A stretch of DNA of 64,000 bases from Exiguobacterium artemiae 255-15 (GTDB lineage: Bacteria; Bacillota; Bacilli; Exiguobacteriales; Exiguobacteriaceae). A program made the position numbers and the translations under genes. Each line of letters opens with the position of its first letter. The first letter of the stretch is position 1. The stretch is from positions 2,134,001 to 2,198,000 of the forward strand of contig NC_010556.1 of assembly GCF_000019905.1 (NCBI RefSeq). The letters run 5' to 3'. The notes beneath the pieces were generated by a model that saw nothing but the letters and a program-made list of their open reading frames with translations, was not told the origin of the DNA and searched no databases. Of this stretch, positions 2,391-4,797 are shown piece after piece.

Positions 2391-3858
2391 ACATGGCCGT
2401 CTCCTGACCGGATAACCGAATCAGTTCATCGGTTAAAATCTTGACTTCATCGAACGGCACGTGCTCCGTCCCAATCTGTTCGAACCGTTCATGCCCTTTC
2501 CCGACAATGACCATCCGCTTCCCGGTCAATGCAACCTTTGCTGCAATCTGGAGTGCTTCTTTTCGCGACTCATGACAGGTGATGATTTTTCGAGGCGGTA
2601 TCTCTACCAGAAGCTCTTTAATGATTTGTTGCGGCTGTTCCCGCCTCGGATCATGTACCGTCACGATGATTCCCTCGCAATACTGACCGGCAATCCGTCC
2701 CATCACCGCTCGTTTGGAACGATCTCGTTCCCCTGCTGCACTCAGCACCATATATAAAGGTTCGCCCGGAACAGACAATGCTTTCAAACACTTCTCCAAT
2801 CCGTCCGGTGTGTGCGCATAATCAATGTATACTTCGCACCCTTCAAACGGAATCTGTTCCAAACGTCCTTTCGGAAGACGAAGTTCCGGTATATGGCGGA
2901 TCAGCTGATACATATTAACGTTACCTGCCTGCATCAGTCCGATGGCCGCCGCAAGATTCGCAGCATTGAAATCGCCGAGAAGAAAGACAGGAACTTCCGT
3001 CACTGTCCCGTCAATCCGGACACTGACAGTCTCCTCTTTCCACTCCACTGTGATTGGTGCTTCAGACAGCGCTTTTGTTGCGTACCAGATGACAGGCACG
3101 CCTTCTGCCGCTTTTTCCATGACTCGACTCTTCGGATCAGCCTCATTTAGAATGACCGCTTGCCCTCCGCTCGTTGCAACTTGTTTGAACACCAAGGCTT
3201 TTGCCTGCGCGTATTCCTCCATCGAGGCATGGTAATCAAGGTGATCGTGTGTCAGGTTCGTAAACGCTGCGGCATGAAACTTTACCCCTTCCACGCGACC
3301 TTCCATTAAAGCGTGCGAAGAAACCTCGAGTACACAATCGGTGACCCCCTGCTCGACCATCTGGTATAACAGACGATGCAAAATGATAGCTTCCGGTGTT
3401 GTATTCGGTGTATCGATCATTTCTCCGTCAATCATCGCTCCGATTGTGCTGATCATCCCTGCCTTCTGTCCGGCAGCACGAAATAAATCGTATGTCAGTT
3501 TGGTCGTCGTCGTTTTCCCGTTCGTACCCGTTATTCCATAAACCTTCAACTTGTGACTCGGATGATCGTAAAATAAATCCGCCACTTTTCCGGCTGCATG
3601 TTTTGTATCCTGTAATAGGACGACGGGAACTTCCACTCCGTCGATGGGTTCTTCCGCTAAAATCGCAACGGCTCCGTTTGCAACGGCCTCTTCAGCGTAC
3701 TGGTGTCCATCAACGGTATAGCCGCGGACACAAATATACAGACAGCCTTTTGTCACTTCACGCGAGTCTGTTGCGATGCCCGTGATGGAAGGATTTACTT
3801 CGCATGTGAGATGAAATGGCGCAATTAATTCGGACAGGTGTTTATCTAAAAGATTCAT
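2389..3858 (-). CDS. murE: UDP-MurNAc-tripeptide synthetase MurE (probably L-lysine-adding)
   Basis: A 489-residue cytoplasmic Mur ligase. Domains run as: N-terminal UDP-binding (ITGIATDSREVTKGCLYICV), central ATPase with the P-loop YGITGTNGKTTTTKL, and C-terminal ligase domain. It adds the third amino acid to UDP-MurNAc-L-Ala-D-Glu during peptidoglycan synthesis. The residue-specificity motif, DNPR in meso-DAP enzymes, reads HDPR here (VTVHDPRREQP). This departs from the DAP signature, and Exiguobacterium walls are known to carry L-Lys. Substrate choice is therefore inferred as lysine, not shown. A strong AGGAGGAGAG site precedes the ATG. Isolated from the dcw cluster; convergent with rnhC. 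Confidence 0.9.
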   Translation of the reverse strand: MNLLDKHLSELIAPFHLTCEVNPSITGIATDSREVTKGCLYICVRGYTVDGHQYAEEAVANGAVAILAEEPIDGVEVPVVLLQDTKHAAGKVADLFYDHPSHKLKVYGITGTNGKTTTTKLTYDLFRAAGQKAGMISTIGAMIDGEMIDTPNTTPEAIILHRLLYQMVEQGVTDCVLEVSSHALMEGRVEGVKFHAAAFTNLTHDHLDYHASMEEYAQAKALVFKQVATSGGQAVILNEADPKSRVMEKAAEGVPVIWYATKALSEAPITVEWKEETVSVRIDGTVTEVPVFLLGDFNAANLAAAIGLMQAGNVNMYQLIRHIPELRLPKGRLEQIPFEGCEVYIDYAHTPDGLEKCLKALSVPGEPLYMVLSAAGERDRSKRAVMGRIAGQYCEGIIVTVHDPRREQPQQIIKELLVEIPPRKIITCHESRKEALQIAAKVALTGKRMVIVGKGHERFEQIGTEHVPFDEVKILTDELIRLSGQETAM

Positions 3859-3917
3859 GATGTATGTTCTCTCCTCCTGAGTTTAAACGAACAGCGACAG
3901 TATTCTGACGGGCTTTA

Positions 3918-4075
3918 CCGGTGAACTACTCACCACTTATTTGCTTCGCAAATTGAAGTTTCCTTTTGATTCGTTACACTGATTGTATCCAACAATCTCA
4001 GTCTTGAAAAACAGGGCGATTCATCTTCCACCTATGCTGGGCTTCGCCCTGAGACGCTTAGAGGTGGGAGAATTC
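3918..4075. other. Hairpin-rich non-coding block, possible IS200/IS605-type end or stranded guide-RNA scaffold
   Basis: The gap between divergent murE and the response regulator holds four consecutive hairpins. GGTGA/TCACC is at 3920-3934, ATTTGC-TTC-GCAAAT at 3939-3953 and GATTGT/ACAATC at 3981-3997. The fourth, large and branched, has outer arms CCACCT/AGGTGG (4028-4067) and an inner GGGC-TTC-GCCC (4039-4049). None carries a T-run like an intrinsic terminator. A final hairpin reading AGGTGGGAG resembles right ends of IS200/IS605 elements in Firmicutes, where the TnpB-associated RNA is encoded. No tnpA or tnpB remains. Identity is inference; a structured leader RNA is the main alternative. 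Confidence 0.4.
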
Positions 4076-4134
4076 TCGCTAAATTCAGTTAAACTTCAGA
4101 TAATGATGGTACAACTAAGTATGAGGTGAAAAAA

Positions 4135-4797
4135 ATGACACATATTTTAATTGCGGAAGATGAATTTGATATCCGCGAACTCTTAACTGAACTGCTTGAA
4201 TCGAGCGGCTATCATGTCACAAGTGCCGCTAACGGAATGGAGGCACTTAAGCTGCATCAGTCAGCGACATTCGATTTGATGATACTGGATATCATGATGC
4301 CTTATCTGGACGGTTTTGAAGTCGCGCAACAGGTTCGAAAAACGTCTCAAACGCCGATTATCTTTTTGACCGCTTTACAAGATGAAGACAATCAAGTAAA
4401 AGGGTTTGACCTTGGGATCGATGACTATATTGCCAAACCCTTTTCCTTACGCATTTTATTGCGCAGAATCGAAGCCGTCATTCGACGAATCCGGACGAAT
4501 GACGAAGAACAGCTCTCTTTCCGTGAAATTACCCTATTTCCGGCAAGCTATAACGTTTTAATTTCTGGTAACGCTGTTATTTTGACGTTAAAAGAGTTTC
4601 AAATCCTTCATTTATTGTTGGAAAATCCAGGTCGAGTACTGGAACGAGAACAACTGATTCAACAATTATGGGGATTTGACGCTTTTGGGGATACACGTTT
4701 TTTAGATACACACATTAAAAACCTTCGCAAAAAAATCAACGTTCCCTACATTCAGACCGTAAAAGGAGTCGGATATAAACTTGAAGCGACTAATTAA
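4135..4797 (+). CDS. OmpR-family response regulator
   Basis: A 220-residue regulator. The receiver domain (residues 1-115) has ILIAEDEFDIRELL (acidic pocket), MILDIMMPYLDGFEV (phospho-acceptor Asp) and DDYIAKPFSLRILLRR (conserved Lys). The winged-helix DNA-binding domain (about 130-220) ends LDTHIKNLRKKINVPYIQTV, then KGVGYKLE. The start was set at ATG 4135, with the GAGGTG ribosome binding site ending at 4128; a GTG at 4126 lies within that site. It overlaps the partner kinase by 17 bases. The target genes are not evident; the nearby efflux and ABC genes are possible but unproven targets. Confidence 0.92.
   Translation: MTHILIAEDEFDIRELLTELLESSGYHVTSAANGMEALKLHQSATFDLMILDIMMPYLDGFEVAQQVRKTSQTPIIFLTALQDEDNQVKGFDLGIDDYIAKPFSLRILLRRIEAVIRRIRTNDEEQLSFREITLFPASYNVLISGNAVILTLKEFQILHLLLENPGRVLEREQLIQQLWGFDAFGDTRFLDTHIKNLRKKINVPYIQTVKGVGYKLEATN

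Follow-up and report, generated by a model that had tools for sequence, protein, structure and literature searches.

Four consecutive hairpins (3920-4079) separate the divergent genes murE and an OmpR-type response regulator in Exiguobacterium artemiae 255-15, and the question raised by this locus is what they are: terminators, a leader RNA, a guide-RNA scaffold or the remains of a transposon. We addressed it in a 64,000-nucleotide stretch of this genome, which we will henceforth refer to as the window and to which all coordinates refer.

Structure and setting of the hairpin block

The original prediction had described four hairpins, the last of them large and branched, and folding recovered each at its described place (Table 1). 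The genomic setting agreed as well, with murE on the minus strand (start at 3858), the response regulator gene on the plus strand (ATG at 4137) and a histidine kinase gene next after it, while the limits given for the block (3918-4075) proved slightly short of the element that comparison with other copies delimits. Segment 3900-4090 has a folding energy of -54.5 kcal/mol, whereas 200 dinucleotide shuffles average -42.3 kcal/mol (z = -3.15) and none of them folds as well; folding its minus strand gave a z of -2.28, with 3 of 200 shuffles equally good.

Table 1 Features of the hairpin block, the element and its flanks, in window coordinates.
Feature	Position	Strand	Description
Hairpin 1	3920-3934		GGTGA/TCACC
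Hairpin 2	3935-3959		ATTTGC-type stem, TTC loop
Hairpin 3	3981-3997		GATTGT/ACAATC
Hairpin 4	4016-4079	-	Large, branched, subterminal at the left end; CCACCT/AGGTGG around GGGC-TTC-GCCC
Element	3921-4088	-	Read in tnp sense from 4088 (left end) to 3921 (right end); ends set by copies in differing flanks
TTTAA motif 5' of left end	4093-4089	-	Precedes 15 of 15 extracted copies; hybrid junction by comparison with relatives
Left end, 130 nt	3959-4088	-	Branched hairpin, candidate guide motif GAATT, promoter-like site
Internal deletion junction	3959-3960	-	Base 3959 fits both sides
Right-end remnant, 39 nt	3921-3959	-	Keeps terminal hairpin and ...GGTGAGTAGTTCAC end, lacks scaffold core and GAAGC
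Flank where a guide would be read	3901-3920	-	CGGTAAAGCCCGTCAG...; now murE 5' region
Promoter-like site	4010-3982	-	TTTTCA-17-TACAAT, reading towards murE; 9 of 12 consensus letters

It had also been argued that the hairpins, having no T-runs, are not simple terminators. No continuous T-run follows any of the four stems, which bears out the first half of that argument; the second half is not absolute, since a loose terminator scan of 3800-4200 called three terminator-like sites against a shuffle mean of 0.2. We rejected a terminator array as the explanation of the block, as continuous T-runs are missing and its homology tracks a transposon, while noting the three weak calls. Searching the whole window against Rfam returned no family at its gathering score, and the same search of eight loci gave only PhrS in L042, below the gathering score and taken as chance.

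Identity of the element and its relatives

We found that the two ends of seven longer copies in the same genome are the two halves of the window block. Specifically, a search of that genome with 3900-4090 showed that 3959-4090 or 3961-4090 recurs at seven places (83-96% identity), and that at each of them a counterpart of approximately 3921-3959 (93-100%) lies some 1.2-1.6 kb from the left-end match; partial left-end matches were also present. A pattern scan with the right-end 20-mer (up to 3 mismatches) marked eight places, the window copy counted. Five of the longer copies are about 1.35 kb long and carry tnpB only, while two of 1.76 kb carry both tnpA and tnpB. Thus the dispersed relatives that the original prediction proposed to look for exist, and they carry the very genes missing from the window copy. 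Its longest open stretch in the tnp sense is 33 codons, with neither tnpA nor tnpB. On these comparisons, the block is an internally deleted IS200/IS605-type element of 168 bp on the minus strand. Of the two readings offered originally, a non-autonomous IS200/IS605 element or an exapted RNA, only the former is supported by these comparisons. The direction had been misread: the ending AGGTGGGAG, taken for a right end, is the left end, and a right end at 4075 is excluded by the longer copies, which place the tnp sense on the minus strand.

In copies of 1347-1356 bp the tnpB frame spans 372 codons (with a frameshift in L035; open in four tnpB-only copies of the window's own genome), and copies of 1756 bp have a tnpA of 140 codons followed by tnpB; the other lengths are 1486 bp and the shortened forms of 909, 419, 168 (the window copy) and 149 bp. 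The 140-codon product of a 1.76-kb copy (L040) is a Y1 TnpA (PF01797, E = 6.4e-41), and the frame of L036 encodes a TnpB (PF01385, PF07282 and PF12323). Among TnpB relatives in named genomes (n = 57), 13 were 80-92% identical, i.e., 12 Exiguobacterium loci and one in Salinicoccus; a plasmid search gave no match. Matches to some part of the block turned up in 10 of the 19 genomes of the genus (the window's own included). Pairing left- and right-end matches gave 21 elements, 15 of which were extracted end to end. All 15 have TTTAA 5' of the left end and TTCAC at the right end (L046 ends in ATTCAC, TTCAC being common to all copies), with flanks that differ; TTCAC formed part of the pattern used to locate ends, and TTTAA did not.

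The window left end is 96% identical to that of a 1356-bp copy (L035) and 97% to that of the 419-bp copy (L046), and the whole element falls 1187 bp short of a 1355-bp copy. At its internal junction, sequence 3' of the tnpB ribosome-binding site runs straight into the base of the right-end hairpin. The element is thus an ordinary genomic fossil, two ends fused and the middle lost. Non-autonomous, MITE-like derivatives of IS200/IS605 elements, in which an internal deletion fuses the two ends, form a general class, and the window copy resembles them in just this respect.

Several features are those of IS200/IS605 elements such as IS608 and ISDra2, in which a Y1 TnpA occurs with TnpB: subterminal hairpins at both ends (here the left by pair counts over 31 ends, the right by folding), insertion 3' of a short motif kept in the left flank, a candidate guide motif 5' of the hairpin, and tnpA and tnpB in the longer copies, though in the window copy neither gene is present. 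The flanks show no visible target duplication, as judged against empty sites from relatives only. By analogy, TTTAA would be the target and left cleavage site, and it is the expected TAM of the TnpB; the motif differs from the TTAC and TTGAT reported for IS608 and ISDra2 (PMC5934647). Free-standing IS605 stem loops near genes have been described on Borrelia plasmids (Delihas 2009, PMC2775950), which are similar in that end hairpins lie beside host genes with the transposase gene absent; some of those are reported there to be conserved as RNA structure, whereas nothing shows selection on the window element. None of the publications listed for Exiguobacterium with IS605, or for IS605 with MITEs, appeared to treat this element.

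We then asked how well the branched hairpin is retained across related left ends (36 pattern matches, of which 31 were aligned; four without a TTTAN end were taken as chance and L053 is shortened). Standard pairs filled 92.4% of 618 cells, a level reached by none of 500 shuffles (90.2% paired), and sliding the pairing by 1-3 columns lowered it to 35-49%. Cells changed on both sides numbered 19 (0 of 500 shuffles). Two of the five covariation measures did not stand clearly above shuffles: the five pairs with changes on both sides were equalled in 74 of 500 shuffles, and the count of pair types in 332 of 500. Since the aligned ends are related, we take these counts as support, not proof, that the left-end hairpin retains its pairing. 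Pair 22-64 is broken in the window copy alone.

The candidate guide motif and the TTTAN target give a second signal: in 49 of 50 ends, distant Bacillota among them (56 matches, of which 6 without TTTAN inside 22 nt were left out; few clades are represented), their final bases are complementary. TTTAA goes with GAATT, GAAGT or TAAGT, and TTTAT with GAATA, GGATA or TAATA; the sole exception is TTTAC with GAATA. This co-change is what guide/cleavage-site pairing like that described for IS608 (PMC5934647) would give.

The genus also holds a second short repeat that has the left-end hairpin in common with the element but is preceded by TTTAT (TTTAC in L030), found at L042 (~1040-1160), L043, L019, L020, L021, L027, L030, L032, L033 and L056. 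The copies that we read have a further part in common, like GTGTCGGGCAATTGACGTGTCG...GACACGCCTTGCCCGAA. Given the many matches to the left end only in two genomes (G007 and G015), this repeat may be an amplified IS605-type MITE.

Probable history of the locus

To follow the locus through the genus, we searched 18 relatives, 17 of which gave a murE match. The 330 nt ahead of murE are free of the element in all 17, and scanning their murE loci of ~4.4 kb for left- and right-end motifs (up to 4 mismatches) gave no match. Conserved pairing of a unique block always sitting upstream of murE, as in a leader RNA, had been named originally as the observation that would speak against a transposon; in none of the 17 relatives does the block sit there. 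A conserved murE leader RNA or riboswitch could account for the strong folding, yet all 17 relatives lack it ahead of murE, the homology is tied to the transposon copies and not to murE, and Rfam offers no match at gathering score; we regard it as virtually excluded.

Alignable empty gaps came from relatives with 83-90% murE identity, which differ mutually at the very site; across it, L062 reads GCCG-CTAAAAAATACAGGTCATCTCATCTCCAGTTAAACTTCAG where the window reads ACCG-[element]-CTAAATTCAGTTAAACTTCAG. On the minus strand, relatives carry a TTTTTTAA or TTTTTTAG stretch, an expected target, near the start of the window's right-end flank. Combining these observations, we consider it very probable that a tnpB-only element inserted beside murE and then decayed in place through an internal and a second deletion. 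Specifically, an IS200/IS605-type element carrying tnpB only would have entered the minus strand after TTTAA in the gap between murE and the response regulator gene, at a stretch like the TTTTTTAA of relatives (expected empty site TTTAA^CGGTAAAG). An internal deletion of ~1.19 kb would then have removed tnpB together with the bulk of the omega-RNA scaffold and the motif preceding the right-end hairpin, and a second deletion of ~29 bp, between the repeats TTTAGTTAAA in the left end of the element and TTCAGTTAAA in the response-regulator promoter box, would have brought the left end directly against the response-regulator promoter. Recombination between these 10-bp repeats would explain the hybrid CTAAATTCAGTTAAAC, and the window TTTAA probably belongs to the promoter box as a consequence. 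The hairpins that remain would formerly have been single-stranded binding sites for TnpA. Comparison establishes what the element is, its ends, its direction, its internal junction and that relatives lack it at murE, whereas we infer where it inserted and that a second deletion occurred, as the relatives' gaps differ at the site and come from other species; decay in place, the order of events, the loss of mobility and the lack of a working guide RNA are likewise proposed. The element could also have inserted directly at the promoter-box TTTAA and then undergone a deletion that began precisely at its right end, but this is less economical than insertion with a 10-bp-repeat deletion, which also accounts for CTAAATTCAGTTAAAC.

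Alternatively, the 168-bp form may itself transpose as a mobile MITE, moved in trans by the TnpA of the 1.76-kb copies, and we think this unlikely. The two tnpA-tnpB copies in the same genome could supply such a TnpA, the window copy retains TTTAA and TTCAC along with its two ends and the left-end hairpin, three more short forms (149, 419 and 909 bp) exist in relatives, and with one genome sampled per species its movement may have gone unnoticed. Against it, the internal junction occurs once in the genome, and a 23-mer across it had no exact match in genome_contigs (a set that may omit the window's own genome). Moreover, the GAAGC 5' of the right-end hairpin is lost although 13 of 14 other copies have it, so are two possible foot pairs present in most copies, and the four short forms of the genus all differ in length and junction. 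The single occurrence of the junction favours a decayed element over a spreading or amplified MITE, and the loss of the motif 5' of the hairpin makes decay in place the simpler reading.

On the far side of the locus, window 4084-4099 (TTCAG-TTAAAC-TTCAG) contains two TTCAG repeats 11 bp apart, a pair also found before the response regulator gene in relatives (one repeat altered in L070); they are a possible autoregulatory OmpR-type site. Four genomes (G014, G008, G013 and G004) gave no response-regulator match at E 1e-60, and fragments resembling the gene adjoin murE in L062, L063, L064 and L065, so that the two-component system appears to be decaying in several lineages.

Candidate guide RNA and promoter at the murE side

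The guide-RNA scaffold of such transposons is described as having its 3' terminus at the right end (PMC10278001), and a guide-RNA scaffold was among the roles originally suggested for the block. This right end is the stretch of 39 bp closest to murE, read on the minus strand, with terminal hairpin and end kept. Of the 14 other extracted copies, 13 have a scaffold core; the window copy has lost it, left-end sequence standing in its place, and so the suggestion is not supported for the window copy. GAAGC, which by analogy with IS608 could act as the right guide, precedes the hairpin in 13 of 14 other copies (GAAAC stands in its place in the longer copy L036) and is missing here. The 909-bp form has lost the core and kept GAAGC, while the 419- and 149-bp forms have both. 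The deletion of core and GAAGC makes a working guide RNA from the window copy unlikely and its mobility doubtful.

A stand-alone guide RNA would mean that the right end yields an RNA bound by TnpB, the murE leader serving as guide, and that other copies supply the TnpB. The terminal hairpin and the guide boundary are kept, open tnpB frames exist in four tnpB-only copies of the same genome, and the 3' stem-loop that is retained is reported as the sole conserved scaffold structure of typical TnpBs (PMC10278001). Only 39 nt of right end are left, however, against 106 nt for the processed AmaTnpB scaffold (PMC10278001), the upstream scaffold of 13 of 14 other copies is deleted, and in the window's own genome TTTAA plus the first 11 flank bases matched no place with fewer than 2 mismatches. 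At 2-3 mismatches, this search found 41 places (one being the locus itself) compared with 21 for the reversed pattern. Taken together, we judge a stand-alone guide RNA highly improbable. The 149-bp derivative (L047:1032-1180, in G008) is the opposite of the window copy, having kept scaffold core and GAAGC and lost most of the left end, which by its sequence makes it the better candidate for a stand-alone guide RNA.

We also asked what the element may do to its neighbour. Its right end lies 62 bp ahead of the murE start codon, and its promoter-like site reads towards murE. Of the 15 copies, 14 have a corresponding site with 9 or 10 of 12 consensus letters, which in the longer ones precedes tnpA or tnpB; the 149-bp copy lacks this part. 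The site is the only match in the first 160 nt of the copies, save an overlapping one in L041. Since chance alone would place 0.9 such sites in the 400 bases scanned, only its recurrence in the copies supports the site, and as these copies are closely related, the recurrence is weak evidence. On the minus strand, the stretch from the promoter-like site to murE contains none of the three terminator-like sites.

It is possible that the putative left-end promoter adds transcription into murE. In the fuller form of this idea, which we put forward tentatively, transcription from it would run across the right-end remnant into murE and would replace or supplement that from the native promoter; it is favoured by the recurrent site, by the path to murE free of terminator-like sites on that strand, and by the native upstream sequence, which is displaced and apparently partly deleted. 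Beyond the chance expectation and the relatedness of the copies, it has against it that our consensus search named no native murE promoter, giving only matches of 8-9 of 12 letters. Somewhat less probable still is the complete picture in which the remnant is one, or the only, promoter of the essential murE, giving a leader of ~115 nt with the transposon's terminal hairpin, while its far side abuts the response-regulator promoter box.

With the orientation of the hairpin array now fixed, its misannotation as a guide RNA or a leader RNA can be avoided. The four deletion derivatives with their differing junctions, together with the agreement between target and guide, provide a small data set on how such elements decay. 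If the remnant does drive murE, a cell-wall gene would depend on a transposon end, i.e., an essential gene would have been rewired by a transposon.
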